A DNA stretch of 64,000 nucleotides from Lachnospiraceae bacterium (GTDB lineage Bacteria; Bacillota; Clostridia; Lachnospirales; Lachnospiraceae), in assembly GCA_021202075.1 (NCBI GenBank), contig JAJQDT010000031.1:1-64000 (forward strand), in the 5' to 3' direction. The notes below the pieces were generated by a model. It was not told where the DNA came from, ran no database searches, and saw nothing but the letters and a program-made list of their open reading frames with translations. The stretch's first letter is position 1. Each line of letters begins with the position of its first letter. A program made the translations under genes and the position numbers. This document shows, one piece after another, positions 15,863 through 53,824 of the stretch.

Positions 15863-16671
15863 ATGGCAAATGAAAACGGAGAATGGATTATGTACGGAAT
15901 GGACTGGAACGACCCTATGCGCATTCGCAACTGGCGCGACTTGATCAGTTGGATCAATGAGATTGGCTTTCTTCCACTGTTCAAGAATGAGATCGAGGGC
16001 TTCTCGGTGGAAGAGCATACATCGAACCTGTTCTGGTGGACGGGAGATCCGGAGCAGGACCCGTGGGAGTGGCGGGAACTGATTGCCCGGAGCCACGAGG
16101 TAGCAAAGGAGAGCCTCGCCATGCAAAATCGCGCTAAAGCGCGATGGCTCGGCCTACGTCCATGATTCCCTGGCGTGAATCATGGACAAACTACGGAAAG
16201 TTTTTCGGGAAAAAGTCAGCCTTTGTCAGTCTGGAATGGTTTCCAATCTTTGCGAATTACCGTAGAGACGGCTATGATTTCGATGCCAGATGGGATGACG
16301 AGTTGGCCAATATCCGCAGTAAGAAGATCATGGACTGCTTTGAGGATCAGGATGAATTGATTGGTCTGGAATTGAAAAGACGCGCCGGCTTCGGCAAAGG
16401 TGGGGAAAAGAACTTCAACGGGATTCTGACGGACCTTCAGATGCAGACGTATCTGGTGACTAAAGACTTTCGACGCAAAGTAAACAAGCGCGGCGGGGAA
16501 TATGGAATGCCGGTATGTGTCTATTCAAAGCCGGAAGATTTGTGGGGCTATGACATGGTGAGCTCGAATTATAAGGAAGAACCGGCAGAGAGCCGGGAAA
16601 AGATATTTGAGCATTTAAGCCACAGCTATCCATTTGCATCGGAAGCGCAGATGAAGAGGCTTTTGAAATAA
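15863..16671 (+). pseudogene. AlkZ-related protein gene interrupted by a palindromic element
   Basis: The first part (15863-16105) encodes NWRDLISWINEIGFLPLFKN then TGDPEQDPWEWRELIARSHE. The second (16192-16671) continues YGKFFGKKSAFVSLEWFPIF, then GFGKGGEKNFNGILTDLQMQ, and near the end CVYSKPEDLWGYDMVSS. Together they match a conserved clostridial family that I recall being named AlkZ-related (YcaQ-like, a possible DNA-glycosylase relative). An 83-base insertion between near-identical 5-mers (CAAAG and CAAAC) separates them and shifts the frame. Removing it gives ...EVANYGKFF... A good AAGGAGAT site precedes the start. Confidence 0.65.
16104..16191 (+). repeat. Double-hairpin element, copy in the AlkZ-related gene
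   Basis: It starts GGAGAGCCTCGCCAT. Stem ATCGCGCT/AGCGCGAT lies inside a GCCxxGCCAT/ATGGCxxGGC stem with a four-base bulge after CCAT. Then CTAC and a perfect second hairpin GTCCATGATTC/GAATCATGGAC. It is flanked by CAAAG (16104-16108) and CAAAC (16187-16191), an 83-base net insertion that breaks the host frame. Confidence 0.8.
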
Positions 16672-16708
16672 AAGAGAGTATTTTTGCGTATAAAAGAGGA
16701 TGTTTTTT

Positions 16709-17935
16709 ATGGCAATGGATAAGAGGAATAAGACAGAAAATAATCAGACACAGCTTGAAGCATCTTTCGGAATGGCTCTTGTAGATGCGTTACCGGTCAT
16801 ATGTTTCAGCATCTCGATAGCTCTGATTGCGTCTATGTACCATTCAACGGTATTTTTGATTGGTGCGTTGCTGTGTATCATAGCCGGTCTTGGAAAAGTA
16901 TTGTGGAAATTAATTCTGGCTGCAGCCCATAAGGATATACAATTGTTATACAAGCAATTTCATTATCTGATGCCGGGCAGTTTTGTATTGATTCTTCTTT
17001 CCCTGATTATCAGCCGCCCGCCTTTATCTGTGCTGTGTAAAAACATATCCTCATTTCCGTGCAATATCCTGTTTCTGTTAGCTATTGTCGGATTTGCTGC
17101 GATGGGAATTCTTGGTGCAACAGCGGAGAGCCATGCCATGAAAAATTGTGCTTCGCACAATGGCATGGCCTACGTCCTCGATTCGCACAGCGAATCGGGA
17201 CAGGAGATGGATTCCGCCAGTAAACGTGCAAACTGGATTGAGCAGTTGGTAAATCTGGCGGCGCAGCTTTGTATTTTGCTAGGTGTGCTGATGATCTGGT
17301 ATGCGAGCGATTACTACAGGGCTGATGCGGAAGTTGCAGACTATCTGAAAAGTAACGGCAGTGTAGAGATTATTGAGACTGATGGCGGACTCTATTTTGA
17401 TGGCAGCGGAGAGGACAGCGCGATTATATTTTATCCGGGAGCAAAGGTCGAGTATACAGCTTACGCCCCACTGATGATGGAACTGGCAGAGAATGGTGTG
17501 GACTGCTTTTTACTTGAAATGCCTTACAACATGGCTATTTTCGGAATCAACAGAGCCGATGTTGTGATGGAAGAGTATGATTATGAGCATTGGTATATTT
17601 CTGGTCATTCTCTGGGAGGCGCAATGGCTGCGTCCTATGCGGCAGGAAATACAGAAGAACTGGATGGTGTAATCCTGCTGGCTGCTTACGCAACAAAAGA
17701 CCTGGGGGATATTGCAGTGCTTTCCATCTATGGCAGCAACGATGGTGTTCTGAGCATGGAAAAAGTTGAGACAGGCAGAGCGTATTCAACAAATTACGCG
17801 GAAGTATGCATAGAAGGCGGTTGTCATGCATGGTTCGGCTATTATGGAGAACAGAATGGGGATGGAACCGCTTCAATTTCCAGAGAGGATCAGTGGCAGC
17901 AGACCGTGGATGCGGTGTTGGAAGTGGTTGGATGA
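16709..17935 (+). CDS. Membrane-anchored alpha/beta hydrolase
   Basis: This protein of about 408 residues has an N-terminal half with four to five transmembrane segments (about 20-190). The C-terminal half is an alpha/beta hydrolase: nucleophile Ser in YISGHSLGGAMAASYA, acid Asp in SIYGSNDGVLS, and the catalytic His in GGCHAWFGYYG. The domain resembles Abhydrolase_5/dienelactone-hydrolase-like families. The ATG at 16709 follows AAAAGAGGA, and an ATG at 16700 is too close to it. A palindromic element (17125-17204) is read through in frame between two membrane segments as about 26 extra residues (ESHAMKNCASHNGMAYVLDS and onward). Confidence 0.75.
   Translation: MAMDKRNKTENNQTQLEASFGMALVDALPVICFSISIALIASMYHSTVFLIGALLCIIAGLGKVLWKLILAAAHKDIQLLYKQFHYLMPGSFVLILLSLIISRPPLSVLCKNISSFPCNILFLLAIVGFAAMGILGATAESHAMKNCASHNGMAYVLDSHSESGQEMDSASKRANWIEQLVNLAAQLCILLGVLMIWYASDYYRADAEVADYLKSNGSVEIIETDGGLYFDGSGEDSAIIFYPGAKVEYTAYAPLMMELAENGVDCFLLEMPYNMAIFGINRADVVMEEYDYEHWYISGHSLGGAMAASYAAGNTEELDGVILLAAYATKDLGDIAVLSIYGSNDGVLSMEKVETGRAYSTNYAEVCIEGGCHAWFGYYGEQNGDGTASISREDQWQQTVDAVLEVVG
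17125..17207 (+). repeat. Double-hairpin element inside the hydrolase gene, read in frame
   Basis: GGAGAGCCATGCCAT begins the element. GCCATGCCAT pairs perfectly with ATGGCATGGC around ATTGTGC-TTC-GCACAAT, with the usual bulge after CCAT. CTAC then leads to the second hairpin GTCCTCGATTCGC/GCGAATCGGGAC. GGAGA at 17125 recurs at 17203, giving a net insertion of 78 bases (26 codons) if that is the target duplication. The host frame stays open. Confidence 0.8.
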
Positions 17936-17969
17936 GTATAGCATGATTTTTTGATGGAGGATAGACAGT

Positions 17970-18305
17970 ATGGATGAAAAGCGCTTGGGACGGGTTCGTT
18001 CCTTTATAGAGGAGCGGGGCTGGAATTATAATTATTCCGAAGAGGATGGATGCGGAAGTATTGATTTTGAATATCGCGGGCTTGCTTATCATATATATTG
18101 TCCATGATTTGCGAAGCAAATCATGGACGTAGGCCGAGCCATTGCGCGTAAGCGCAATTTGGAATGGCGAGGCTCTCCTTGTATCTGGGAATTTGATGAT
18201 GGAGAACGCGGAGTGGAGACCAACCTGCGGCATGGAGGACGGAACGAGGATCTATTCGGAGATTACGAGGCTGAGATACTCGCGATTATGCGGGACTGGC
18301 GTTAA
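17970..18305 (+). pseudogene. Small hypothetical gene interrupted by a palindromic element
   Basis: The ATG at 17970 follows GGAGG. The first part encodes 45 residues (MDEKRLGRVRSFIEERGWNY and onward) and ends at an in-frame TGA (18105-18107) supplied by the inserted element. The second part, in the same frame, gives WEFDDGERGVETNLRHGGRN and ends MRDWR. Removing 81 bases between the TTGT repeats gives YHIYCIWEFDDGE, a continuous acidic protein of about 84 residues. I do not recognise the family. Confidence 0.6.
18098..18182 (-). repeat. Double-hairpin element, reverse orientation, introducing a stop codon
   Basis: Read on the minus strand it is GGAGAGCCTCGCCATTCCAA, ATTGCGC/GCGCAAT, then CTACGTCCATGATTTGC and the matching GCAAATCATGGAC. 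It is flanked on the plus strand by TTGT at 18098-18101 and 18179-18182. The 81-base net insertion keeps the frame but brings a TGA. Confidence 0.8.
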
Positions 18306-18330
18306 GGCAAAAAAATTTTGACAAAACATA

Positions 18331-18359
18331 TTGACAAAAAAATAACAAAAGATTATAAT
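18331..18359 (+). promoter_or_regulatory. Consensus sigma-A promoter
   Basis: TTGACA (18331-18336), a 17-base spacer and TATAAT (18354-18359) match the consensus fully. Another TTGACA lies at 18318. It drives the leader described next. Confidence 0.85.
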
Positions 18360-18365
18360 TTGAAT

Positions 18366-18487
18366 CATCAAAAGGGAGTAGTTGGCCGACAGGCTTTCGC
18401 ACCGACTATCATGCAGAACCTTCTGCATGGGATGAATTAAAAACAAGACTTTTGCGACAACGTATATTGTGGCAGAAGTCTTTTTTT
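18366..18487 (+). ncRNA. Structured leader, possible yybP-ykoY (Mn2+) riboswitch, with terminator
   Basis: The predicted transcript starts near AAAAGGGAGTAGTTGGCCGA. AGTTGG pairs with CCGACT, CATGCAGAA pairs with TTCTGCATG, and a terminator follows: AAGACTTTTGC with GCAGAAGTCTT and seven Ts (18445-18487). The GGGAGTAG opening and the later GACTTTTGC terminator resemble yybP-ykoY manganese riboswitches of clostridia as I remember them. The match was not checked against a covariance model. No metal exporter follows. Only remnants do, so the leader seems orphaned. A stand-alone small RNA is the alternative. Confidence 0.5.
18445..18487 (+). terminator. Intrinsic terminator of the leader RNA
   Basis: AAGACTTTTGC and GCAGAAGTCTT form the stem and seven Ts follow. 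Confidence 0.75.
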
Positions 18488-18501
18488 ATTATCAAGACGG
18501 C

Positions 18502-18628
18502 TGCCACCATCCAAAGAAAGCTGCGGCCAACGCAAAGCGTTTTCAAAATGGCCGCAGCAAGCTGCCCTCGCCGGGTGGCATCCTCGCCCTTCGGGCGGGA
18601 TATCCGCCGAATGAAATGAGGGGTGGCA
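18502..18628 (+). repeat. Composite nested palindrome 1
   Basis: Outer arms TGCCACC (18502-18508) and GGTGGCA (18622-18628) enclose GCTGCGGCCA/TGGCCGCAGC (18520-18558) and a GCCGGGTGGCATCC...GGGATATCC hairpin with CTTCGG-type loop. A similar GCCGGGxGGCATCCCG hairpin is nested in the element at 19.8 kb. Confidence 0.6.
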
Positions 18629-18639
18629 TTTCCTCTGTT

Positions 18640-18903
18640 TCTCCATTTGAGCAGGGCTTTTTCAACGTACAGCCCAGGTATCACATTTCAAACGAACGTA
18701 TTAAGAAGTATTATCCGGTGGATCTGCAGAAACTGTGCCAGATAGCAGATACACAGATGGAGAGTGTCATTACAGAGCTGATTGTCGGGCCGGAGTCCAC
18801 GCAGTCAGTACCCATTCTGCAGGATTATCTGAGAGATATGGGTTATGAAAAACTGGCTGAAAAAGTGACTCATTCGGCTTGCCCGTTGCGGCAGAAATTA
18901 TAG
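18640..18903 (+). pseudogene. C-terminal remnant of a DUF2971-like protein
   Basis: Residues ITELIVGPESTQSVPILQDY followed by LRDMGYEKLAEKVTHS resemble the end of DUF2971 proteins, where a conserved IxGP motif precedes an amphipathic helix. The N-terminal two thirds are replaced by the palindromic composite upstream. An open frame runs through the composite but has no family resemblance there. Confidence 0.4.
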
Positions 18904-18950
18904 AATTTGATTAAAGAACCAATATTGAACGAGTATTATGATTTGAGGGA

Positions 18951-19049
18951 GTGCCTGGCAGCGTGTGGGTGCTGCCAGAGCGTCTGCGAAACGCGAAGCG
19001 TTTTTTGCATCGCAGACGCGATTTGCCGCTGATCGAAAGGAAGTGGCAT
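18951..19049 (+). repeat. Composite nested palindrome 2
   Basis: CTGGCAGC/GCTGCCAG (18955-18978) and GCGTCTGCG/CGCAGACGC (18980-19019, with ACGC/GCGT inside) lie between TGCC and GGCA arms. The end AGTGGCATTTCC recalls the GGTGGCATTTCC end of composite 1. No gene is visible from 18904 to 19282. Confidence 0.55.
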
Positions 19050-19282
19050 TTCCATATGTGAGTTATGAAATGACGTTGGAATAAATCTAACATCTACATA
19101 ATGTTTAACACCGATTTTTGACGAAAGTATGTCAGAATTATAAAATTTCAAAAAGGTGGCTTCTTTATTGAAGCTGCCTGTTTTTTATGATAAGATGGTT
19201 TCGATTTTTATGGCGTGGATTGAGAGACAGATGAAAGCGAACGAAGGGAGTCAGAATCAGATATGATACAGGAGGGATGATT

Positions 19283-20040
19283 TTGAAAATTACATGGAAG
19301 GGCATTCGTGCTTCAAATTGGAGAAGGATGGTTACACGATCATAACTGACCCTTATGCAGATGGAAGTGTTCCTGGATACGCTCCGATATGCGAGAAAGC
19401 AGACATGGTTCTCTGCAGTCATGAACATGCAGACCACAATTTTCGTGATGGGGTAGAGTTGATCGAAAGGCAGGGGCTTCCGTTTCATGTGGAAGTAATT
19501 GAAACTTATCATGATGAGGTGTGTGGGAAAAAGCGCGGCCCGAATAAGATATTCATTATTGATGATGGAGAAAACCGTGTTGCTCATTTTGGAGATTTAG
19601 GGTGTGAGCTTACGCCAGAGCAGATGGAAAAACTGCAGAATCTGGATGTGGCTATGCTTCCTGTCGGAGGTTATTTTACGATAGATGCGAGACAGGCGGC
19701 AGACATTGTCCTTTCATTAAAGCCTGGAATTGTGATACCGATGCATTACAGGAGTGTGAAGTACAGTTTTGGATATGATGTGATAGGAACAGTTGACGAG
19801 TTTACGGAAGCTATGGAGAGCCGCGCCCTCGCCGGGAGGCATCCCGCACTTCGTACGGGATATTCCATGCAGAATCGCCTGACGGCGATGGCGCGGCCTG
19901 CGTCCATGATTCGCTCTGCGAATCACGGACATATTATGGATAACGTTAAGACATTATCCGGAAGTGAGCTCGAAATCGGATCTACGAATGCTTCAGGACC
20001 ACAGGTAACCGTACTACAGCCCAGAAATATAGCAATATAA
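19283..20040 (+). CDS. Metallo-beta-lactamase-fold hydrolase (UPF0173/UlaG-like), with in-frame element and N-terminal frameshift
   Basis: The zinc motif HEHADH, DDGENRVAHFGDLG and VIPMHYRS mark an MBL-fold hydrolase of the UlaG/UPF0173 type. The natural start seems to be TTG 19283 (GGAGGG site), reading KITW, but one base is missing near 19293, so the GHSCFKLEKDGY frame now opens at ATG 19294. After DEFTEAM a 123-base insertion (41 codons, flanked by TATGG at 19812 and 19935) adds an Arg/Ala-rich stretch and then the protein resumes DNVKTLSGSELEI. Removing it restores TEAMDNVKT exactly. Activity is uncertain. Confidence 0.75.
19812..19939 (+). repeat. Double-hairpin element with a nested second palindrome, in frame
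   Basis: It starts AGAGCCGCGCC and continues, after a nested GCCGGGAGGCATCCCG...CGGGATATT hairpin, with CCATGCAGAATCGCC/GGCGATGG, GGCGCGGCCTGC and the second hairpin GTCCATGATTCGC/GCGAATCACGGAC. TATGG lies on both sides (19812-19816, 19935-19939). The net insertion is 123 bases. Confidence 0.8.
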
Positions 20041-20066
20041 AGCAGAACCTAAGCCGGAGGTATGGA

Positions 20067-21026
20067 ATGGAAATTGCGGAGATGCTGGATGAAATCAAGA
20101 AAAAAGCGCAGGAAGATGCCGATCTGAAGGAAGAACTGCTTCGCACAAGAGAGCAGAAAAACCCTCTTTCCGCTTTTTGTTCGAAGTGCCGGGAATTGGG
20201 TTATTCAATATATGAAATGGACGTAATTGCAGCGGGAGAAGAATCCTATGCGGCAATGAAGCGCAGCACACGGGAGAGCCACGCATTCCGAATCGCGCTT
20301 GCGCGTGATGGCGTGGCTCACTCGTGGGATATCGAATCAGGAGGTCTGTATCAGAAGGTGACTCATGGGAAGTATATGTGGGATCCAGACGAGGAAGAAT
20401 TTCCATTGTTTCTGCGGAGTATTTATCATGCTGCACGTGATTTACTGGATGCAGCCGAAGCGGAATGTAATGTTACCGGAAATACAGATGCACTTCGCAT
20501 CTCCAGCCAGGAACGCCTGTTTCACTGCCTGGCAATGCAGTTTGTGGAACCGGCAGATTGCCTGCCCAAAATAGCCGAACCGGATATGGTTGATAAAGAG
20601 AACCGCAAAATTTATCGTTTTCGTGCCTATGTCGGAGAAAAGCAAAATCTGGATATCATGAGAAGAATTGCTTCTCTGCGTGCCGCTGAAAGTGTCTACC
20701 CGGCGGCACTCCGAAATGGAAGATTGATGATTGCTGATAAAAACGGGGGCAGCCTCGGACATCTTTCCTTCGCTGAGGATGAACTGTATTATTGTCTGTT
20801 TCCATTTATGAGTGCGCATATGGCTCAAGTCCAGCTGACCGTAAAGAAGGTTCAGAGGAATAAGGGGAATTATCTGCGCCATGCAAAAGCAGAGATAGAG
20901 TTTTTGATACGCTTGAATCAGGAAGCGGACAACTATCGGAATCCGGACATGAACGAACGAATAGAGAGAATCTTATCTGATTATCGGAATCAGCTTCGTG
21001 GAGCCGTGTATGCTGGAATCCTATAG
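20067..21026 (+). CDS. Nif11-like N-terminal domain protein of unknown function, carrying an element
   Basis: This 319-residue soluble protein has an N-terminal 65 residues (LDEIKKKAQEDADLKEELLR and on to LGYSIYEMDVIAAGEE) that resemble the Nif11 leader-type domain found in clostridial RiPP-associated proteins. The stretch RESHAFRIALARDGVAHS is encoded by half of a double-hairpin element (20271-20320). The following 230 residues are charged, mostly helical and unfamiliar. The start follows GGAGG-like GCCGGAGG. The element may have fused two formerly separate reading frames. No maturation enzyme for a RiPP is nearby, so a precursor role is not supported. Confidence 0.5.
   Translation: MEIAEMLDEIKKKAQEDADLKEELLRTREQKNPLSAFCSKCRELGYSIYEMDVIAAGEESYAAMKRSTRESHAFRIALARDGVAHSWDIESGGLYQKVTHGKYMWDPDEEEFPLFLRSIYHAARDLLDAAEAECNVTGNTDALRISSQERLFHCLAMQFVEPADCLPKIAEPDMVDKENRKIYRFRAYVGEKQNLDIMRRIASLRAAESVYPAALRNGRLMIADKNGGSLGHLSFAEDELYYCLFPFMSAHMAQVQLTVKKVQRNKGNYLRHAKAEIEFLIRLNQEADNYRNPDMNERIERILSDYRNQLRGAVYAGIL
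20271..20320 (+). repeat. Half double-hairpin element, in frame
   Basis: Only the first hairpin is present: GGGAGAGCCACGC, bulge, ATCGCGC-TT-GCGCGTGAT, GCGTGGCT. The GTCC hairpin is missing. The host frame remains open. Confidence 0.7.
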
Positions 21027-21028
21027 CA

Positions 21029-21139
21029 GACCCTGGGTGTGATGTTTCCCAAAAGGTGCTGGATAAGTATTTTGACGGAGAGAAAGACCCGAAGACAATT
21101 GTTATCCTGGAGCGGCAAAATCCATCAGTCAGGGAATGA
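21029..21139 (+). pseudogene. Short C-terminal gene remnant
   Basis: An open stretch encodes 36 residues (DVSQKVLDKYFDGEKDPKTI, then VILERQNPSVRE) with protein-like composition but no start. It may be the tail of a gene lost by deletion. The family is not recognised. Confidence 0.25.
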
Positions 21140-23711: not shown

Positions 23712-23948
23712 TAAAACGAAAAAGGGGCTTGAAACGGAATGCGGAAACCTGATATTTTATATATATGAAGGTTTTCCGTACCGTTTCCAGGGAGAAAAGG
23801 ACACGGAAAACCGCAAAGTAAAGAAAAGTAAAGAGAAAGAAATACAAAAGAAAGAGCGAATCCGAGCCGTGCCGGTTTTCTATCTCACTTATCTGTAAGA
23901 GTGCAGCAAAAAAAATGAAATCTTCTCACACACAGATTACGTGCCGAA

Positions 23949-24028
23949 AAAGGGAGGGCCGGGATCATTCCTGACCCCGGCGAGTATGAAAAAGAAAGAT
24001 TAAAAAGCACTTGCTGTCTGCTTCTGAG
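23949..24028 (+). repeat. Direct repeat copy B (partner at 13196)
   Basis: This is nearly identical to 13196-13282. It differs by a few bases, one of which breaks the small frame (MKKKD then a stop). Similar sequence (GTGAAGAAAAAATGGCT) follows in both copies. Confidence 0.85.
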
Positions 24029-24148
24029 ATATAAGATACTATTCCTCTGTGAAGAAAAAATGGCTGAATTGTGGGAAAACAGTTAATAAATTGCGGTTCC
24101 ATTGTGAAAGGCGAAGTAGGGGAATCTCCTGAAATAGCATAAATATTC

Positions 24149-25373: not shown

Positions 25374-26735
25374 ATGGCTTCTGTGAAAGATAGAAACTAT
25401 ATAGCAATTGACCTGAAGTCGTTTTACGCTTCTGTTGAATGTGTGGAACGGGGACTTGACCCTTTTCAGGTGAACCTGGTAGTTGCAGATCCGACCAGGT
25501 CGGTTTCTACGATCTGTCTGGCTATTACGCCCGCAATGAAAAAGCTGGGTGTTAAGAACCGCTGCAGGATCCATGAGATTCCGCCGGATGTGAAGTATAT
25601 TACGGCAATGCCCAGGATGCAGCTGTATATTGACTATTCTGTCCGGATATACGGGATCTACCTCAGATATTTCAGCCCGGATGACATCCATGTGTATTCG
25701 ATAGACGAATGCTTCATTGACGTTTCCGACTATATGGACCTGTATGGCAAAACAGCAAGAGAGCTTGCGGTTCTGCTGATGAAGGAAGTGATGCGGGAGA
25801 CCGGGATATGCGCCACGGCAGGGATTGGCACGAATCTTTATCTGTGCAAGATCGCTATGGATATTGTGGCAAAGCATGTGGATGACCATATCGGTTTTCT
25901 GGATGAAATGGAGTACCGGGAAAAGATGTGGGGGCATCGGCCGCTGACAGACTTTTGGAGAATCGGCCCCGGGACTGCGAGGACATTAGGGCGTTATGGA
26001 ATTTTTACAATGGGCGATATCGCCCGCACCAGTTTAAAACAGCCGGAATGGCTGCAGAAATTGTTCGGGATAGATGCGGAGCTGCTGATTGACCATGCAT
26101 GGGGCTATGAACCATGCACGATGAAAGATATCAAAACATACGTGCCTGAGACGAACAGTCTGTCTTCCGGCCAGGTACTTATGCGGAATTATTCTTTTGA
26201 AGAAGCATGGGTGATTGTCCGGGAAATGACGGATCAGCTGATTCTTGATCTGGTGGATAAGGGCCTGGTGACAAATTCCGTCTCGCTTTATATCAGTTAT
26301 GACCATCGGTCCGGAGTCCCTTCCGGCGGGAAAGGAACAGGGCTGAATTCCTTCACGAACAGTACCTCACTGCTCCTCGCGACAGTAGAAGCTCTGTATA
26401 AGGAAATCACTGACCGGTATACCGGTATCCGTAGAATCAATGTCTGCTTCGGCAGGCTGCGGCCGGAAGAATTTGAACAGCTTGATCTGTTTACAGACGA
26501 TGCTGTGAATCCGCATTGCGAATCCATGCTGTTGGACGCGCCATTGTGCGAAGCACCGTCCGGAATGGCGTGGGTTTCCCGCCGGGAAGCGAGAATCCGT
26601 GAAAAAAATATACAGAACGCGATTCTGGAAATCCGGCGCCGGTATGGAGCCAATGCAATTATGCGGGGATGCAATCTGCTGAAGTGTTCCAATTACAGAG
26701 AGCGAAACATGCAGATAGGCGGCCATCGTGCATGA
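25374..26735 (+). CDS. Y-family DNA polymerase (UmuC/DinB-like)
   Basis: This 453-residue translesion polymerase shows the first catalytic Asp in YIAIDLKSFYASVECVERG, the steric-gate Phe/Tyr pair in the same motif, and the second acidic pair in VYSIDECFIDVSDY. Helix-hairpin-helix and little-finger domains follow, with the usual tail INVCFGRLRPEEFEQLDLFT. Residues of about 379-405 (PHCESMLLDAPLCEAPSGMA and on) are encoded by a palindromic element read in frame between the little finger and the conserved C-terminal NAILEIRRRYGANAIM. A GGGAGGAT site precedes the ATG. An SOS-type role is inferred, and no LexA box was recognised. Confidence 0.9.
   Translation: MASVKDRNYIAIDLKSFYASVECVERGLDPFQVNLVVADPTRSVSTICLAITPAMKKLGVKNRCRIHEIPPDVKYITAMPRMQLYIDYSVRIYGIYLRYFSPDDIHVYSIDECFIDVSDYMDLYGKTARELAVLLMKEVMRETGICATAGIGTNLYLCKIAMDIVAKHVDDHIGFLDEMEYREKMWGHRPLTDFWRIGPGTARTLGRYGIFTMGDIARTSLKQPEWLQKLFGIDAELLIDHAWGYEPCTMKDIKTYVPETNSLSSGQVLMRNYSFEEAWVIVREMTDQLILDLVDKGLVTNSVSLYISYDHRSGVPSGGKGTGLNSFTNSTSLLLATVEALYKEITDRYTGIRRINVCFGRLRPEEFEQLDLFTDDAVNPHCESMLLDAPLCEAPSGMAWVSRREARIREKNIQNAILEIRRRYGANAIMRGCNLLKCSNYRERNMQIGGHRA
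26509..26580 (-). repeat. Double-hairpin element inside the Y-family polymerase gene
   Basis: On the minus strand CCACGCCATTCC, GGACG, GTGC-TTC-GCAC and AATGGCG form the first hairpin (26539-26570), matching the family's CGCCAT-bulge-ATGGCG plan. The second hairpin is degenerate (GCAT/ATGC around 26515-26530). The host frame is kept through the insertion. Confidence 0.6.
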
Positions 26736-35303: not shown

Positions 35304-35381
35304 TACAGAGCCGGAAATTGACAGATGTACCGGAATGTGCGATAAAGATTGTCAGGTGCAATTCGGAAGATAGAACAGAAT

Positions 35382-36524
35382 ATGTCAGTCGAACCCGGGG
35401 AAACGTTCGATATGGACATGATGATAAAAAAAGAAAAAGTAAATAGGGCTGCTCGAAGGATCGGCGGCACGGCGGTGCGGCTTCTCTACCCACCGCGGTG
35501 TCCCCTTTGTGACCAGATCCGCCCCGCGCGAAGCGCCTTTGACTGGGAAGCCGCGCCATTTGAAGCTGCGCAGATGCGCAGGGGCGCGGCCTGCGTCCTG
35601 CATCAAAAACCGATGCAGGACAAAAAATGGGCGGATCAATCTGCCGCCGACCGAAGGGAGGGGGCGTTACCTTGTGACCAGATCCGCCCCGCGCGAAGCG
35701 CAAAGATTAATCTGGTATGTGACTCTTGCCGTCCCACTCTGCCCTGGGTGTCGGAGCCCGCGTGCATGAAATGCGGCAAGCCGCTTGACCGTGCAGAATC
35801 GGAGTATTGCGAGGACTGCACCCGGACGCCGCATCTGTTTGACCAGGGACGCGCGGCGTTTGCCTATTCGGGCGCGATGCGGCACAGTGTTTACCGGATG
35901 AAATTCCAGAACCGCCGTGATTATCTGGACTTTTATGCGGAGGCGATGGTGCAGGCGGGGCAGCGCTGCCTGTGTCTCTGGCAGCCGCAGGTGATCGTGC
36001 CGGTTCCGATGCACTGGAAAAAACGGGCCGCGCGCGGATACAATCAGTCGGAGCTTCTGGCAGTCCGGATCAGCCGCCTGACCGGGATTCCCTGTGACCG
36101 GAAGCTGCTTCGCTGCGTCCGCTATACAGGAAATCAGAAGGAACTGAACCGCAGGGAGCGGCTTGAGAATCTGCGCGGGAGCTTTGAGGTCCGGCTGCCG
36201 GAATCCGCGCCGAAAGACGCTGCATTTCGCAGATCTAATTTGCGGACGCCGGAATCTTCGCCGGGAAGCGCTGCATCCCGAAGATCTGTGGGAGCGCGGG
36301 AAGGCGCGGGGGGAATGCCTGAAAGAAGAGGGACATATGATTTTATGCCTTCGCGCGTCCTTCTGGTGGATGACGTCTATACGACCGGCAGCACGATGGA
36401 TGAGGCGGCGCGGGCGCTGCGGGAGGCGGGAGCCCAGCAGATTTATTTTCTGACCATCTGCATTGGAAAAGGGAAAAAAAGTTTGGGAAAAAGTTTGCAT
36501 GACACGAAATCTGTGCTATACTGA
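35382..36524 (+). CDS. comF: ComF-family phosphoribosyltransferase-like protein with repeat insertions
   Basis: This is a ComF homologue, linked in other bacteria to DNA uptake during competence. It has an N-terminal zinc ribbon (CPLC ... CDSC, CMKCGKPLD, CEDC). The PRTase domain includes VIVPVPMHWKKRAARGYNQS and the pyrophosphate-loop motif VLLVDDVYTTGSTMDEAA. At about 380 residues it is far longer than the usual 220-250. The excess comes from a 165-base insertion inside the zinc ribbon bounded by a 30-base direct repeat, and a 51-base imperfect tandem duplication (PESAPKDAAFRRSNLRT / PESSPGSAASRRSVGA) before the PRTase motif. The start is uncertain: ATG 35382 or 35412. Confidence 0.82.
   Translation: MSVEPGETFDMDMMIKKEKVNRAARRIGGTAVRLLYPPRCPLCDQIRPARSAFDWEAAPFEAAQMRRGAACVLHQKPMQDKKWADQSAADRREGALPCDQIRPARSAKINLVCDSCRPTLPWVSEPACMKCGKPLDRAESEYCEDCTRTPHLFDQGRAAFAYSGAMRHSVYRMKFQNRRDYLDFYAEAMVQAGQRCLCLWQPQVIVPVPMHWKKRAARGYNQSELLAVRISRLTGIPCDRKLLRCVRYTGNQKELNRRERLENLRGSFEVRLPESAPKDAAFRRSNLRTPESSPGSAASRRSVGAREGAGGMPERRGTYDFMPSRVLLVDDVYTTGSTMDEAARALREAGAQQIYFLTICIGKGKKSLGKSLHDTKSVLY
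35507..35701 (+). repeat. Direct repeat pair enclosing a double-hairpin element inside comF
   Basis: The 30 bases at 35507-35536 recur at 35672-35701 (start TTGTGACCAGATCCGCCCCG). Between them lie GATCCGCCC/GGGCGGATC outer arms and a double-hairpin element (35545-35624): GCCGCGCC...GGCGCGGC and GTCCTGCATC/GATGCAGGAC. The spacing of 165 bases (55 codons) keeps the frame. Confidence 0.85.
36199..36300 (+). repeat. 51-bp imperfect tandem repeat in comF
   Basis: Two units beginning CCGGAATC share CGCCG, GACGCTGCAT/AGCGCTGCAT and AGATCT at equal spacing. Each encodes 17 residues, so the frame is kept. Confidence 0.65.
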
Positions 36525-44763: not shown

Positions 44764-44936
44764 TTACCGTTTATCACTGTCCAGCCATTTGATGATACAA
44801 TGAAAGCCGCGCAACTGAGAATCGCTTCGCGATTGGCGCGGCCTTCGTCCATACTCGCAAGCGAGTACGGACATATGATATAGTATCCGACGATATCACC
44901 CGTGACAGCAACCAGAACGGTAAGAATGGTTTTCAT
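44764..44936 (-). pseudogene. Small hydrophobic (type I toxin-like) peptide gene split by a palindromic element
   Basis: On the minus strand ATG 44936 (AGGTG site upstream) encodes MKTILTVLVAVTGDIVGYYI, then element-derived residues. Deleting 83 bases between the ATGAT repeats joins it to KWLDSDKR and a TAA at 44764-44766, giving a 29-residue peptide with one membrane helix and a charged YYxxKWLD tail. I recall such peptides as common in clostridia and resembling type I toxins, but no family was verified. The facing small RNA candidate shares 16 bases with its start. Confidence 0.6.
44792..44879 (+). repeat. Double-hairpin element with 5-bp target duplication
   Basis: ATGAT at 44792-44796 and 44875-44879 flank AAAGCCGCGC...GAATCGC-TTC-GCGATT...GCGCGGC and the second hairpin GTCCATACTCGC/GCGAGTACGGAC. 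The net insertion of 83 bases interrupts the peptide gene. Confidence 0.85.
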
Positions 44937-45935: not shown

Positions 45936-45944
45936 GTAACAGCG

Positions 45945-48130: not shown

Positions 48131-48757
48131 ATGACAGATAAAATCATTGAAAACAATCAGGTATCCATCATGGGCAAAATCATATCCGGCTTTTCATTTA
48201 GTCACGAGGTGTTCGGAGAAGGATTTTACATGGTGGATATTTCCGTGCAGAGACTGAGCGACTCAACTGATATTATTCCTGTGATGATCTCGGAGCGGCT
48301 GATTGACATTACGAAAGATTATCAGGGGTCTTACATACAGGTGTTCGGCCAGTTTCGTTCTTATAACCGGCACGAGGAAAAGAGAAACCGTCTGGTGCTC
48401 TCGGTGTTTGCCAGAGAGGCCGCCTTTGTGGAGGATGTCAGTGATAAGGTAAAAAGCAATCAGATTTACCTGGACGGCTATATCTGCAAAACGCCGGTGT
48501 ATCGGCGCACCCCGCTTGGGCGGGAAATCGCGGATATGCTGCTGGCGGTCAACCGTCCATATGGAAAGTCCGATTATATTCCCTGCATCTGCTGGGGGAG
48601 AAATGCCCGCTTTGCCTCGGGATTCGAGATAGGTGGCCATGTGCAGATCTGGGGCCGTATACAAAGCAGGGAGTATGTGAAAAAGCTGGACGAGGAAACC
48701 GCCCAGAGACGTATTGCATATGAGGTGTCCATCAGCAAGCTGGAGTACCTGGACTGA
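48131..48757 (+). CDS. Single-strand DNA-binding-like protein with two OB folds
   Basis: This 208-residue protein has two tandem OB-fold-like halves (about 8-98 and 105-205): VSIMGKIISGFSFSHEVFGE ... VFGQFRSYNRHEEKRNRLVL, and IYLDGYICKTPVYRRTPLGR ... YIPCICWGRNARFASGFEIG with HVQIWGRIQSR. The second half is the more SSB-like. There is no acidic C-terminal tip, so it is probably not the replication SSB. GGGAG lies twelve bases before the chosen ATG. A TTG at 48101 would lengthen it. It is monocistronic. Confidence 0.75.
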   Translation: MTDKIIENNQVSIMGKIISGFSFSHEVFGEGFYMVDISVQRLSDSTDIIPVMISERLIDITKDYQGSYIQVFGQFRSYNRHEEKRNRLVLSVFAREAAFVEDVSDKVKSNQIYLDGYICKTPVYRRTPLGREIADMLLAVNRPYGKSDYIPCICWGRNARFASGFEIGGHVQIWGRIQSREYVKKLDEETAQRRIAYEVSISKLEYLD

Positions 48758-49006
48758 ACAGCCGCGGCGCTTCATCTGCATCGGTACCATACGCAGGAAG
48801 ATACTGCTATTCGCAGACAGGCGTATATAGGAAGGCAGAAATATACAGCTTGAATTTTGTAATAAATTAAATAACTAACGTAATGAAAAACATTGCAGCA
48901 ACTTATAATTTGCATTTTGTAATGAAATGGTGTAAAATATACAGGACATCTTTTTTCAGGACAGAATGGTAAAGAAAGGTTGCCGGAAGGAATCCGGAGG
49001 GATCAT

Positions 49007-49510
49007 ATGAACAAAGGAAAAATCCATATATTTTGTGGAAAAGGTACGGGAAAGACTTCGGCAGCGCTTGGCAAGGGAATCCGCGAAGCGGGCGCCGGAA
49101 GAAGCGTGATTGTGATTCAGTTTCTAAAAGGAAAGAATAATGAGAGAGCGGCAGAGTATTTCCGGCGGCTCGAGCCGGAGCTTCGGCTGTTCCGGTTTGA
49201 GAAGTCGCCGGAGAATTACGAGAGCCTGACGGAACGCGAGCGGGAGGACGAGTGCCGGAACATCAAAAACGGATTGAACTTCGCGAGGAAGGTGCTGGTG
49301 ACAGAGGAGTGCGACATCCTGATTCTGGACGAGATTCTGGGGCTGACAGACCGGGGTATTGTCACTCTGGAGGAGCTGCGCGGATTGATGGATGCGGTTC
49401 CGGAGAGCATGGAGCTCTACCTGACAGGTATGAGCAGATGCGAGGAGCTCTGGCCGGCCGCGGATGAGGTGACGGTGATGACGTCCCCGTGCTCCGTCCC
49501 TGTTTCGTGA
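49007..49510 (+). CDS. Corrinoid adenosyltransferase-like P-loop protein (CobA/CobO family)
   Basis: This 167-residue protein has an N-terminal P-loop FCGKGTGKTSAALGKGIREA, IVIQFLKGKNNERAAEYFRR and ILILDEILGLTDRGIV, which match CobA/CobO-type ATP:corrinoid adenosyltransferases. It is slightly shorter than typical members and has no B12 genes nearby, so it may be a stand-alone adenosyltransferase for cobalamin salvage or a divergent relative. GGAGG lies six bases before ATG 49007. Confidence 0.78.
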   Translation: MNKGKIHIFCGKGTGKTSAALGKGIREAGAGRSVIVIQFLKGKNNERAAEYFRRLEPELRLFRFEKSPENYESLTEREREDECRNIKNGLNFARKVLVTEECDILILDEILGLTDRGIVTLEELRGLMDAVPESMELYLTGMSRCEELWPAADEVTVMTSPCSVPVS

Positions 49511-49727
49511 TTTTTCGTAAATTTCGGGCTTGTTTTCGCTAAAAATCATTGCACGTTTTCCAATTCCTGTGTAAAATAAAACTGTGATGCCAACCATTCG
49601 ATTTTTCGTTGGCTTCTTTCTCTGATTTGTATATTTACATCGGCTGCATCATTGAGTAAGCGGCCGGGTGAAATGGGAACCGTATTGATTTTATTAACAG
49701 GCGGTTTATAGATGAGGCGGGATTATT

Positions 49728-50597
49728 TTGTCGGGAAAATGGGAGAATACCGGGATTTTGAGGATATGCACACGCGCGTTGCGGTTGTGTTTTCTCTGCC
49801 TGCTGGCGTGGGTGACAGTTTGCACAGCCGGGCAGGCGGAGACATCTGACGCGGATCAATGGATCAAAACGGAAATCTGTTTCTGGCAGACGAACCGCTT
49901 CCGGATGCTGATCGCTCTGGCGATTCTGCTGGCGTTGATTCTGATTTTTGCGGCGGCATACCGTTACCGGGTGAACAGCCTGAAAAAACGGCAGGCGGAG
50001 TACCGGCTGATTATTGAGCAGTCTCTGCACACCTTTGCGAACGCGATCGACGCAAAGGATAAGGACACCAATGGCCATTCGGTGCGTGTATCGAAATATT
50101 CCCGGGAAATTGCCCGGCGCATGGACTTTTCCGAGGAAGATCAGGAGGAAATCTCCTATATGGCTCTGCTGCATGACATCGGAAAAATCGGTATTCCGGA
50201 CAGCATTCTGAAAAAATCCGGAAAGCTGACGCCCGAAGAGTGGGAGACCGTGAAGACGCATCCGCGCATCGGCGGAGAGATTTTGAGTGAATTTACGGTA
50301 ATTCCGGATATCGCAGACGGGGCGAAATACCATCATGAACGCTATGACGGCAAGGGATATTGCGAAGGCCTGAAGGGGGAGGAGATTCCGCTGAAGGCCC
50401 GTATTATCGCGATTGCAGATTCCTTTGACGCGATGTGCAGCACCCGCCGCTATCAGGTGGGAAATACACTGGAATATGCCCGCGAGGAGCTGCTTCGCTG
50501 CAGCGGCGAACAGTTTGACCCGAATATCGTAGGGTACATGGTGGACATGATCGACGACGGGTTTGTGGATCTGGTAAAGCAGGAGAACGAAAGGTGA
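49728..50597 (+). CDS. Membrane-anchored HD-GYP-like phosphohydrolase
   Basis: This 289-residue protein has an N-terminal signal-like or membrane segment (about 14-35), a short outer loop, a second membrane helix (about 60-80) and a cytoplasmic HD domain. The metal motif is LLHDIGKIG. HHERYDGKGYCEGLKGEEIP replaces the GYP of classical HD-GYP c-di-GMP phosphodiesterases with GYC. The start is TTG 49728 with GAGGCGGG upstream, because the nearby ATGs are in other frames. No GGDEF gene is near, so the nucleotide substrate is open. Confidence 0.82.
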   Translation: MSGKWENTGILRICTRALRLCFLCLLAWVTVCTAGQAETSDADQWIKTEICFWQTNRFRMLIALAILLALILIFAAAYRYRVNSLKKRQAEYRLIIEQSLHTFANAIDAKDKDTNGHSVRVSKYSREIARRMDFSEEDQEEISYMALLHDIGKIGIPDSILKKSGKLTPEEWETVKTHPRIGGEILSEFTVIPDIADGAKYHHERYDGKGYCEGLKGEEIPLKARIIAIADSFDAMCSTRRYQVGNTLEYAREELLRCSGEQFDPNIVGYMVDMIDDGFVDLVKQENER

Positions 50598-50668
50598 GCG
50601 GAAAATGCGTAAAATGGCATAATTTGACTCCGGTTTATCCTGTTCAGGCCTATGAGAAATAAGATAAA

Positions 50669-50708
50669 AGAAAAAGCATCGGGGAATAAAATCCATCCGG
50701 TGCTTTTT
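50669..50708. terminator. Bidirectional terminator between the HD gene and glgD
   Basis: AAAAAGCATCGG and CCGGTGCTTTTTT form a stem with A and T runs on both sides, suited to convergent genes. A second perfect hairpin GAGCAGGAG/CTCCTGCTC lies at 50740-50769. Confidence 0.65.
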
Positions 50709-50894
50709 TGTGCGTAGAGTCATCCAGAGCCGCGCAAGTGAGCAGGAGCCGACAAACCGTCTCCTGCTCGATTAGCCAGGAAAAATAATTTAACCATCTT
50801 GAACTGCCAATGACTGCGGATACTCCGCTTAAATGCGGTTTCATCATTTTAATTACAAGAAGTCAGTCATTGATCATGCGTGTCTTTCATTTTC

Positions 50895-52037
50895 TTATAC
50901 CGTATGCCCCTTTGCGACATATACCGGGAAGCTGTCGGTGCCTTTCATTTCCTTGCCTGCGCTGACGCGCACATTCTTATCCGTGATCAGGTAATCGATG
51001 TTTGCGCCGGCTTCGACAACGGTATCCTGCATCAGGACGCAGTTCTTCACTACTGCACCCTTCTCAACTTTTACGCCGCGGAAGAGAACACTGTTCTCGA
51101 CTTCGCCCTCGATGACGCAGCCGTCGGCGCACATCACGTTCGATACCTTTGCGCCGTTGATGTAGCGGGTCGGGTTGTCGTCACGAATCTTTGTGTAAAT
51201 CGGCATCCCCTCGAACAGCGCGTTCAGATTGTAATCATCAAGAAGCTTGAGGTTCTCGTCGAAGTAGCTCTTCATGCCCGTGATGCGTGCGGTGTAGCCA
51301 TCATACTTGTATCCGTGGACGTTTCTCCAGGAGAGCTGGTTCAGCAGGACGTCGCGGTTGAAATGCTCCATCCCGCGCACGAATGCGGTGTTGATCATGT
51401 TGATCAGCAGCTCGCGCTCCAGCACGTAGATGTTCATCGAGTAATTCTGTACGCCGGTGACACGCGGATTTACATAAATATGATTAATCCGGCCCTTGTC
51501 AAGCGTAAAGGTATAATGGAAACCTCTGCTGTTATCCTGTGTGCGCATCAGATACTCCGGAAGCTCCTTCTCGCAGTAGGCGATGGATACGTCCGCACCG
51601 CTCTCAATGTGCTCATCGATCATCTTATTAAAATCAAAATTCACCGCGATGCTGGAGTCCGCCATGATGACATAGTGCTCCTTCTGCTCGCGAAGGAACG
51701 GGAGCAGGTTCGCCAGGGTGCCGATGCGGCCATTGTAGACCTTGTTGGACTTCTCCGCATACGGCGGGAAAATGTGGAGACCGCCGTTTTTGCGGGTCAG
51801 ATCCCACTCACGGCCGGTGCCGAGGTGGTCCATCAGCGAATGGTAATTGCTGTTTACCGGGATGACGATGTTGTCGATGTCACAGTTCACCATGCTCGAA
51901 AGAATAAAGTCGATCATGCGGTAACGGCTTGCAAAAGGGATGGAGGCCATGCTTCGGATGCTGACCAGCTCCGGAACAAGCGCGTCGTAATTGTTTGGGA
52001 AAATAATCCCGAGTGCGCTTTTGTTTGAAACTACCAT
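50895..52037 (-). CDS. glgD: Glucose-1-phosphate adenylyltransferase subunit GlgD
   Basis: This 380-residue subunit is paired with GlgC in Firmicutes. The nucleotidyltransferase core lacks the GGxGTRL loop of active GlgC and has [20 protein letters not shown] instead. A left-handed beta-helix of hexapeptide repeats ends the protein ([20 protein letters not shown]). It probably modulates the catalytic GlgC partner in ADP-glucose and glycogen synthesis. Its start overlaps the end of glgC by seven bases, so the two are coupled. No glgA or glgB is in the window. Confidence 0.95.
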
Positions 52038-53239
52038 TGTTCTTCACCACCTTCTACATTTTTATAAACCATTGCCTTCGGGCCGATGACCGCGCCCGCG
52101 CCGACAGAAACCCCTGAGCCTACCGTAGCCACCGCATTTTCCTCCTCGGTCGGCATCGCGCCTACGACCGCGTTCTCGCCGATCGTCACATTCTCCGCGA
52201 GGATGCAGTGCTTCACGACCGCGCCGGACTTCACGACCGTACCGCCCATAATAACCGCGTCTTCCACGATCGCGCCAGCCTCAACTTTAACGCCCGCGAA
52301 CAGAACAGAATGCTTCACTGTGCCGCCAATCCGGCAGCCGTCGGTGATCATGGAATTCTCCACGGTCGCTCCCGAACTGATCTTGTGGCCGGTCATGCCG
52401 CTGTTCCGGCTGAAAATCTTCCAGCCTTCCTCAAAGAGGTCGATTCCGCTGTGCTCCGGATCCAGGACCTCCATATTCGCCTCCCACAGAGAGGAGATCG
52501 TCCCGACATCCTTCCAGTAGCCGCTGAAGTGATACGCGTACATCCTGCGGTTGTCGCGGAGCAGGTTCGGGATGATATTGTTTCCAAAGTCATTCTCCGA
52601 GTTCGGGTCTGCCTCATCCTCGGTCAGATATTTCTTCAGGACATCCCAGTTGAAAATATAAATGCCCATGGATGCGAGGTTGGACTTCGGGTTCTTTGGC
52701 TTTTCCTGGAATTCGGTGATCTTGTCATTCTCGTCCGCGACCATCAGACCGAAGCGCGGCGCCTCTTCCCACGGCACCTCCATGACTGCGACGCTGAACT
52801 CTGCGTCCTTCTCCTTGTGGAAACGAAGGAAGTCGCTGTAGTCCTGCTTGCAGATCTGGTCGCCGGAGAGGATGATCACATACTTCGGATCATAGCGCTC
52901 GATGAAAGAAAGATTCTGGTAAATCGCATTCGCGGTTCCCTTGTACCAGTCAGAGCCGGAAGCCTGCTGATAAGGCGGAAGCACATGAACGCCTCCGTGC
53001 AGACGGTCCAGATCCCAGGGCTGTCCATTGCCGATGTACTCGTTGAGCACAAGCGGCTGATACTGCGTCAGAATACCGACGGTATCGATGCCGGAGTTTA
53101 CACAGTTCGAAAGCGGAAAATCGATAATACGATATTTTCCGCCAAAAGGAACTGCCGGTTTTGCAAGCTTCTGGGTCAGAGCATACAGCCTGGAACCCTG
53201 GCCGCCGGCAAGAAGCATTGCAATCATTTCCTTAGCCAT
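52031..53239 (-). CDS. glgC: Glucose-1-phosphate adenylyltransferase, catalytic subunit GlgC
   Basis: This 402-residue enzyme makes ADP-glucose from ATP and glucose-1-phosphate, the committed step of glycogen synthesis. The N-terminal loop [20 protein letters not shown], the region around [20 protein letters not shown], and YGTAN-like [12 protein letters not shown] with [12 protein letters not shown] are as in active enzymes. C-terminal beta-helix repeats follow. A strong ribosome site precedes the ATG. It is the first gene of a glgC-glgD unit. Confidence 0.96.
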
Positions 53240-53261
53240 AAGTAGATTTCCTCCTGTATTT

Positions 53262-53296
53262 TATAGTAAACGACATAAGTCGTCTTACTTTGCGTC
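53262..53296 (-). repeat. Dispersed palindromic repeat, copy 2 (partner at 35269)
   Basis: TATAGTAAACGACATAAGTC begins a 35-base stretch that matches 35269-35303 in inverse orientation at 31 positions. It lies in the leader of glgC. Confidence 0.65.
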
Positions 53297-53390
53297 GGGC
53301 GGACGTGAATAATCCGGCAGGAGCCTATAGCGCAGTCTAATCAGCGCGAGACGAAAATCCGCCCTTCACCAGAACTCACAGACTCACCCG

Positions 53391-53432
53391 GCGTGACGGA
53401 CAAGGGGAGAAGGGACTCTCCTGCGTCCGATT
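53391..53432 (+). repeat. GGGGAGAAG...CTCCT...GTCCGATTG hairpin, also before the polymerase gene
   Basis: GGACAAGGGGAGAAGGGA with CTCTCCTGCGTCCGATTG forms a hairpin. Its counterpart at 25307-25344 reads GGGCAGGGGAGAAGAGC with CCCCTGTCCGATTG. In both copies the sequence lies in a leader region. Confidence 0.5.
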
Positions 53433-53529
53433 GGCCTATGTCAGAATTGTATCATAGAAAATGGAAAAAGGGAATTTATTTGTGCAAAATTTTCGAAATT
53501 TTTTCGCGAAGATTACACGGGGTATACAT

Positions 53530-53698
53530 GGTTCTGCGAAAAGCCGGAGAAAAACTTGAGAAAACCTTGAGAAAACCGATGATCTGGCTGATGTTCTGCG
53601 AAAAGCTATCGAAAAACAGATACTTCGGTGGAAATTCTGGCTGAAATTCTGCGAAAAGCCGCAGAAAAAGGATTTTGCGAAAAGCCGCGGAAAAATGG
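53530..53698 (+). repeat. Imperfect array of TTCTGCGAAAAGCCG-like units
   Basis: CTGCGAAAAGCCGGAGAAAA, CTGCGAAAAGCTATCGAAAA, CTGCGAAAAGCCGCAGAAAA and TTGCGAAAAGCCGCGGAAAA occur at about 53536, 53595, 53648 and 53675. Open frames cross the array on both strands but encode only Phe/Arg-rich low-complexity peptides. The gap 53240-53866 contains no supported gene. Confidence 0.6.
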
Positions 53699-53699
53699 A

Positions 53700-53728
53700 T
53701 TGACAAATTGAGAACATGGGTATATGAT
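53700..53728 (+). promoter_or_regulatory. Promoter of the amidotransferase gene
   Basis: TTGACA (53700-53705), 17 bases and TATGAT (53723-53728) lie about 140 bases before the start codon. Confidence 0.75.
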
Positions 53729-53779
53729 ATCTCCATAAAAACCATACTTTATAAGTAGGATTACAGGGAAAAGAGACTT

Positions 53780-53824
53780 CCAATATATGTCCGTACTCGT
53801 GGAACGAGTATGGACATACATTGG
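53780..53824 (+). repeat. Half double-hairpin element in the amidotransferase leader
   Basis: TATGTCCGTACTCGT (53786-53800) pairs with ACGAGTATGGACATA (53804-53818), with CCAAT/ATTGG outside. It matches the second hairpin of the family, lies in the 5' untranslated region and might affect mRNA folding. Confidence 0.7.

Follow-up and report, generated by a model that had tools for sequence, protein, structure and literature searches.

A mobile double-hairpin palindromic element dispersed through a Lachnospiraceae genome and its close relatives

What are the paired hairpins that recur along a stretch of Lachnospiraceae DNA, and how did they come to lie inside genes? The stretch, referred to here as the window, is positions 1 to 64,000 (64,000 nt) of contig JAJQDT010000031.1 from assembly GCA_021202075.1. 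A first-pass annotation, made from the letters of the window alone, had described at least nine copies of an element built on one plan and had likened it to the Rickettsia palindromic elements (RPEs). We find that the element moves, in that it has inserted into formerly empty sites. The explanation we prefer, with a rough probability of 0.55, is a non-autonomous, selfish family of mobile palindromic DNA, ~85 bp in length, whose spread would depend on an enzyme provided in trans that works on folded single strands.

The element begins with GGAGAGCC and continues with hairpin 1 (HP1), consisting of a stem, a one-sided bulge after CCAT and an inner stem, then a linker CTNCGTCC, then hairpin 2 (HP2), which opens GTCC and closes GGAC, and ends with ACATRT. 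Over 94 independent sites the plan reads GGRG or GGAA, AGCC, NNGCC, AT with a 4-5-nt bulge, the inner stem, GGCNNGGC, CTNCGTCC, HP2 and GGACATRT. Those sites come from 201 copy entries in the DNA compared, some repeated by overlapping loci, of which 149 match the AGCC and GGAC anchors exactly; discarding those with similar flanks leaves 94. The letters AGCC and GGAC are fixed because the rows were selected by them.

A covariance model named R1 was built from 8 of the window copies annotated earlier, so that those 8 match by construction, with scores of 43.8-94.4 bits (E = 9.2e-23 to 1.3e-9). Four further matches in the window at E ≤ 1 (0.17-0.8) are on the opposite strand and overlap those same copies. 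The test independent of the window is the 5.55-Mb genome, where R1 finds at least 151 matches at E ≤ 1; this is a lower bound because 150 of 1543 first-look candidates were scored, and the true number is probably higher. By this search, of the kind that the annotation had suggested, the copies of the window belong to a dispersed family. No Rfam family corresponds to the element itself within 16000-20400 of the window or in 12 loci from sister genera (one of which gave a sub-threshold match to the GA-cis family, discussed below), and a full-text literature search, in a library limited by licence, found no named family of such a plan in Lachnospiraceae, in agreement with the annotation. The copies in the window are as follows.

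16106..16191, + strand: c1, full element of 86 nt inside an AlkZ-related gene (PF24741); R1 85.2 bits
17121..17204 (R1 match from 17123), + strand: c2, full element of 84 nt, in frame in an alpha/beta-hydrolase gene (16700-17935); R1 90 bits
18095..18184 (R1 match 18180-18095), - strand: c3, full element of 90 nt, placement ambiguous by 3 nt; R1 94.4 bits
19813..19935, + strand: c4, full element, 123 nt in total including a nested 39-nt insert, placement ambiguous by 8 nt; R1 68.8 bits
19826..19864, + strand: nested element of family B in HP1 of c4, CCTCGCCGGG.GGCATC-hairpin-GGGATA, in alignment A1, corresponding to a 39-nt difference between loci L157 and L040
20271..20325, + strand: c5, remnant of HP1, probably a hybrid; R1 43.8 bits
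26499..26581, - strand: c6, full element, diverged, antisense; R1 57.9 bits
35543..35626, + strand: c7, full element inside an open comF-like gene, 35349-36524 (DZR_2, Pribosyltran); R1 78 bits
44799..44884 (R1 match 44799-44877), + strand: c8, full element with a short inner stem; R1 53.8 bits
53787..53817, no strand: c9, lone hairpin or palindrome; R1 11.9 bits with filters off, not among the R1 matches of the window

R1 thus recovers eight of the nine annotated copies. The ninth, placed at 53780, is c9, which we keep as a probable HP2 fragment since its arms approximate, by eye, the reverse complement of HP2 of c8. The copy at 20271, c5, had been taken for a simple half. Loci L041 and L088 contain one copy at each of its breakpoints, and c5 is probably a hybrid, formed when a deletion joined a + copy to a - copy.

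The evidence for movement is in the empty sites. Altogether 153 element entries fall into 97 site clusters, and 26 of these, including those of c1 to c4, have an orthologous or paralogous counterpart without the insert, one of the 26 (L136:7281) in a poor alignment. The claim that the element invades genes was open to refutation by this comparison and holds. Measured against the best empty site, the insert is 78-90 nt at 25 of the 26 clusters, and at the cluster of the c4 site it is 87, 123 or 138 nt depending on the copy, with nested inserts. For c1 the empty sites include L080, L084, L085 and L091 along with others; for c2 they are L084 and L085, with a junction that has no repeat; for c3, L035, L041, L080 and L084; and for c4, which is in frame in a metallo-hydrolase-fold gene (19294-20040; PF13483), L086, L087 and L088. 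The flanks of c6 have no match in the other loci compared.

The empty sites also decide what the short flanking repeats are. No consistent target-site duplication is present at the junctions of the 26 clusters. Of the repeats that had been read as duplications, CAAAG/CAAAC at c1 and TTGT at c3 are both within the inserted DNA, and duplications at c1, c2 and c3 are rejected. TATGG at c4 is ambiguous because its GGA is the element's own start; for c8, flanked by ATGAT, no empty site occurs in the DNA compared. Some sites appear to be short of a few target bases on the GGAG side, which is less certain, being judged by eye against diverged relatives.

It had also been noted that excising the copies restores a host frame. 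That is so, but the insertions are not all harmless. C1 splits the AlkZ-related gene into two open reading frames (ORFs), with positions 1-61 of the Pfam profile on one side and 60-221 on the other. From the translations, c3, antisense in a small gene (17970-18305), brings in a stop codon, and c8, antisense in a small ORF, shifts the frame. Copies c2, c4, c5, c6 and c7 are each in one open frame, c6 directly following the IMS_C domain in a gene for a Y-family DNA polymerase (25374-26735; PF00817, PF11799). Insert lengths are divisible by 3 at 14 of 26 clusters (p = 0.025), some of these sites being without proof of coding. In the source organism, a gut bacterium not in culture, and in its near relatives, copies occupy both genes and spacers, and several disrupt genes. 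A conserved reading frame of the element itself was considered and is weak, being open in 47-67% of 151 copies depending on the frame, against 38-52% when shuffled; host-gene orientation taken from open frames was too noisy for use.

The stems were said to differ in sequence while keeping their pairing, and this too withstood the check that might have refuted it. In 108 distinct rows, 91.8% of the cells are paired, compared to a mean of 78.0% for shuffled rows and at most 42.1% for slid versions. Double changes are found at 23 of 27 pairs and in 352 cells versus 85.5, with 0 of 500 shuffles as high. Because the alignment had been fitted to R1, covariation was tested again without an alignment: the inner stem of HP1 pairs perfectly in 76% of cases when a copy's two arms are matched to each other and in 4.7% when the arms come from copies that differ in them (n = 79, 30 arms), and HP2 pairs at 6.5 of 9 positions with its own arm versus 4.1 between copies (n = 87, 40 arms). 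An exception in HP1 is a common TC/TC mismatch, in 38 of 104 rows and at 20 of 78 sites. Stem mismatches are A.C in 44 cells and G.U in 33, leaving out pairs 179/225 and 181/223, which have an alignment shift and mixed wobble, and 102 versus 61 with them. With G.U not above A.C, there is no pointer to an RNA of the + strand as the selected form.

That result bears on an RNA-mediated insertion, by which a transcript would be reverse transcribed at its target in a target-primed fashion, producing one defined and one ragged end. A target motif on one side, with bases extra or lost on the other side compared by eye to relatives, is what such a process would leave, and so might be the fixed position beside Shine-Dalgarno sequences seen in two further genera. 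But the stems have no G.U excess, and the window copies occur in both orientations relative to the host gene. Together with the reverse transcriptases described below, this leaves the RNA route quite unlikely.

The target preference is on the GGAC side only. AYGR is found at +6 in 23 of the 94 independent sites, no other offset has it in more than 5 of 94, and the motif extends as AYGRA from +6 to +10 (leave-one-out score, Mann-Whitney p = 2e-31). The preference is one-sided without being invariant, and the opposite side is uneven. No covariation indicative of guide-target pairing was seen at the GGAC end in a flank list viewed by eye, unscored. Of 81 element clusters, 55 are co-oriented with the G-rich strand (p = 0.0017); since the availability of targets would by itself give 60-66%, nothing here indicates a replication-strand bias.

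A process with no dedicated enzyme might be proposed here, in which hairpins break and the pieces are put back into the DNA through repair or template switching. Uneven junctions, apparent small losses of target, nested inserts, tandem copies and the hybrid c5 would all suit it, as would the failure to find an enzyme among the Y1 and RVT_1 proteins examined (other transposase families were not searched). What makes it improbable is the target preference at a fixed offset, the precise ends shared by copies in genome G100, introduced below, and the abrupt restriction of the element to one clade.

That restriction is seen when R1 is applied to 98 relatives. Matches occur in 18, of which 17 are carriers with 13 to 44 matches (44 being the number scored) and one, G018, has a single match (E = 8e-5) and is not counted as a carrier; that weak match (L047) is a different two-hairpin sequence with a comparable layout. 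Among the 98, no match came from the 51 genomes belonging to other genera. The 17 carriers form one clade among 47 genomes of one uncultured Lachnospiraceae genus (SH-aLRT 100) in a TypA tree, which is a one-gene tree of these 47 genomes by a quick method, with two rows covering a quarter of the columns. When the genome collection was scanned with a pattern, 31 stretches matched, all in metagenome-assembled genomes titled Lachnospiraceae or Clostridiales bacterium. A scan of the order, with 392 genomes, few of them from the carrier genus, and at most 11 candidates scored per genome, contributed 4 more genomes, likewise Lachnospiraceae: G100 (9 matches), G391 (10), G217 (1) and G415 (1). As for carriage by phages or plasmids, four patterns had 0 matches in viral contigs, and two elements compared to phages and one to plasmids had no match.

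G100 and G391 represent what by sequence are sister families in two further Lachnospiraceae genera, with the single matches in two more. Their elements keep the HP1 half and CTACGT, and the HP2 sequence is unrelated. In G100, 7 of 9 R1 copies are 97-100% identical, and in 7 of these 7 the end of HP1 is 21-23 nt from a start codon, directly 5' of the Shine-Dalgarno sequence; the 2 diverged copies (L312, L313) are outside the script pattern, and the printed sequence has the same layout, for 9 of 9. One of the diverged pair precedes what we take to be the gene for ribosomal protein L3. The fetched loci of G391 contain 27 distinct HP1 ends; for 21 of them a start follows after 19-29 nt (44 nt in one case), and the other six include inner copies of tandem arrays. 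By the same rule, a start on the opposite side is found for 0 of 7 copies in G100 and 0 of 20 in G391 with a locatable other end, and of 3903 random positions in the G100 and G391 loci, 336 have a start. At a locus we read as der-like, the insert is missing from G447, a genome congeneric with G100, with 33 versus 119 nt between aligned blocks. The near-identical copies and this empty site point to recent spread in the sister genus. At the G100 version of that locus (L260:1500), the inserted element appears by eye to provide the stop codon of the upstream gene.

A position this regular raises the question of whether the element is a cis-regulatory RNA family, duplicated with its genes and not mobile. 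In G100 and G391 it precedes start codons by ~19-29 nt (one at 44) in one orientation, and a curated RNA family, Rfam RF02987 (GA-cis), is matched in the window and elsewhere in the same genome. The carrier genus is not arranged in this way, having no Shine-Dalgarno lock of the kind seen in G100 and G391. For 77 of 107 copies in the stretches of the window's genome examined, no gene start was found beside the copy. The copies at gene starts are 25 forward versus 5 reverse among the 107, and 14 versus 7 (p = 0.19) once related sites are removed, so that no orientation bias is claimed. With empty sites in relatives and several copies disrupting genes, a cis-regulatory RNA is refuted as an explanation covering the carrier genus in general and is very improbable overall, though a leader function may be added in the sister genera.

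GA-cis may itself be a mobile palindrome. It is dispersed in the same genome, where 11 matches exceed the gathering score (2 from the window, 9 from 278 kb elsewhere), and a literature search on it found no paper. Its matches include:

18976-19057 and 35584-35675 of the window, and loci L150, L146, L142, L153 and L151: GA-cis (Rfam)

The second of these adjoins c7, and exact 30-nt direct repeats (35507-35536 and 35672-35701) enclose both; in the comF-like gene, the 135-nt stretch with c7 and the GA-cis match between the repeats keeps the frame. Besides this composite, no window copy of the element reaches GA-cis, and a closer look at 16000-20400 gave the same result. At one locus, L245, R1 scores 36 bits and GA-cis 28 bits, the latter below its cut-off.

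Which enzyme could do the moving? The annotation had advised looking for a transposase, a reverse transcriptase or a Y1-like enzyme whose phylogeny tracks the number of elements. Compared by presence only, neither a Y1 transposase nor a reverse transcriptase tracks the element convincingly. Y1_Tnp is in 11 of 17 carriers versus 14 of 30 non-carriers, which does not track the element, and RVT_1 is in 15 of 17 versus 19 of 30, a weak lean at most. Both are missing from carrier G013, which has a completeness of 100 and 44 matches. In G100 and G391 there is no Y1 transposase, and between them they have three RVT_1 genes, of which two were scanned and both fell under the NCBIfam cut-offs. The sole reverse transcriptase of G100, below every NCBIfam cut-off listed, adjoins a gene that we read as the target of a diversity-generating retroelement, which tells against the RNA route, as does the absence of any RVT_1 match in carriers G013 and G021 (G021 being 71% complete); on the other side of the ledger, 15 of 17 carriers have RVT_1, as do G100 and G391. 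An autonomous parent was also sought: 11 matches to the element in G100 include none that is a recognizable end of a longer element, and two end-only matches look like internal deletions.

The Y1 results bear directly on the idea that the element is a repetitive extragenic palindrome (REP) or a palindrome-associated transposable element (PATE), mobilized in trans by a Y1 transposase of the IS200/IS605 or REP-associated tyrosine transposase (RAYT) type acting on the hairpins. PATEs derived from IS200/IS605 insert without duplication beside a fixed, one-sided target. The two hairpins, one with a one-sided bulge, the want of a consistent duplication and the one-sided target all speak for the idea; the linker reversed is GNAGG, with GTAG in 29 of 81 linkers read among the 94 sites; and 11 of 17 carriers do have Y1 genes. 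The idea is weakened, to the point that we consider it unlikely, by the lack of Y1 in G100, G391 and carriers G013, G028, G031, G035, G038 and G042, and by Y1 presence that does not follow the carriers. Nor is GTAG conserved, the 81 linkers being CTTC (31), CTAC (29), CTGC (20) and TTGC (1). An R1 element is at 1 of 30 Y1 loci examined, plus one copy inside a Y1 gene, and the replication-strand bias is absent. The copy inside a Y1 gene (L143:5291-5372, G000:C136) is inserted in the middle of the gene with an 11-12-nt repeat at its ends.

The preferred explanation, selfish palindromic DNA moved in trans, can now be put as a sequence of steps. The folded hairpins would be recognized as single-stranded DNA by an enzyme supplied in trans, which would cut and join on the target-specific side, with the other end closed loosely. 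It would not be a Y1 transposase, of the IS200 or RAYT kind, encoded in G100 or G391. Intragenic copies would persist if the frame stays open or the gene is dispensable, and copies near gene starts if the ribosome-binding site is left intact.

Several points weigh against this explanation. No mobilizing enzyme was found among Y1 and RVT_1 proteins (the DDE, IS110, IS607, Y2 and tyrosine-recombinase families were not searched), and both the enzyme and the single-strand step are what we infer beyond the observed mobility, covariation, target side and clade restriction. Replication-strand bias had to be dropped as support for single-strand insertion. The covariation of a palindrome can also arise by one arm copying the other, and the equality of A.C and G.U may merely reflect decay after insertion. 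The position fixed just ahead of Shine-Dalgarno sequences in the genera of G100 and G391 looks functional and not merely selfish. Finally, the target is on the HP1 side in the sister genera and on the HP2 side in the carrier genus, so one simple mechanism does not explain both.

A second proposal is speculative, though a possibility we take seriously. The element would belong to a mobile class whose enzyme, outside the Y1/RAYT, DDE and reverse-transcriptase kinds, would place folded hairpin DNA directly 5' of a purine-rich sequence resembling a translation start. Two genera would use the upstream edge of the Shine-Dalgarno sequence as a safe haven (28 of 28 starts found are on the HP1 side, and 27 copies examined on the opposite side have none), and in the third, related machinery with looser AYGRA targeting would invade genes.

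The element offers a workable system, with one clade, 17 of 47 sister genomes, 26 empty counterparts and a measurable target. The sister families add to its use, since their copies are nearly identical and their genomes lack any Y1 transposase. The Shine-Dalgarno lock of two genera means either that there is a new rule of targeting or that the element was repeatedly recruited as leader RNA, and each can be tested directly.

Other small repeats were met along the way. Family B, of which a member is nested in c4, is ~39 nt, composed of CCTCGCCGGGNGGCATC, a hairpin and GGGATA, and is found in HP1, beside GA-cis-like hairpins and in tandem with itself. It has 28 pattern matches with one mismatch allowed, G391 included, of which at least L152 and L239 look like chance. 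Its positions include:

19826-19864 of the window; L028, L030, L141:2471, L157, L234:12386 and L273: family B

A third nested sequence, GCTGAGCGCCAGTGGCGCTCGTTTAGCACCGACCGGAGCGG, is in HP1 of some copies (L083:2113-2250, L159:4067-4204, L129:5246-5382). Separately, near-identical stretches ~10.7 kb apart are found at 13194-13353 and 23947-24106 of the window (repeats D3, D4, D12).

It remains to place the element among known systems. A classical DDE-type miniature inverted-repeat transposable element is unlike it, since the ends GGAGAGCC and GGACAT are not inverted repeats and there is no consistent duplication. It differs from an IS200/IS605-derived PATE in having no recognizable parent with the same ends and a Y1 gene, as looked for in G100 and G391 only. 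With GTAG-REPs and REPINs served by RAYTs (PMC3733652) it shares hairpin repeats in many copies and dimers, but it has no conserved unpaired GTAG and no linked RAYT was found, with G100 and G391 lacking Y1. Closer are the CGTC-REPs as described in the main text of the survey of Di Nocera et al. 2013 (PMC3733652), which include RPE-4 and RPE-6 of Rickettsia and dRS3 of Neisseria, are mostly from alpha-Proteobacteria, and have an unpaired tag, stems of 8-9 bp almost always starting AT, and a tail that is mostly CCA. That main text contains neither 'Firmicutes' nor 'Clostridi'. In common are short palindromes, no associated transposase, occurrence inside genes and dimers (PMC3733652); the lack of an evident transposase, as in that survey, is found here for Y1 and RVT_1 only, other transposase families not having been searched. 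In at least 81 of 94 sites our element also carries CGTC at the foot of HP2 on the 5' side, by a pattern that itself requires CGTC and that 13 sites did not fit. It is unlike them in that its GTC is paired with GAC, the G-C pair being present in 100 of 100 lettered cells, in that its commonest 9-mers after CGTC start with C, and in having ATRT after GGAC with no CCA tail, two dissimilar hairpins and a Lachnospiraceae genus as host. How palindromes without a transposase move, RPEs and CGTC-REPs alike, was left open in the survey (PMC3733652). RPEs, described in a review (PMC10969869) as about 150 bp with a conserved peptide, resemble our element as palindromic units inserted in frame in unrelated genes, although here in-frame insertion is mixed (14 of 26 lengths divisible by 3, with c1 and c8 breaking frames and c3 bringing a stop), and the units are ~85 bp with no consistently open frame or conserved peptide. 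Because it departs from these groups in the unpaired tag, the CCA tail and the conserved peptide, we do not file the element as an RPE or a CGTC-REP, though it works like both, and the likeness to RPEs drawn at the outset is sound as to behavior.

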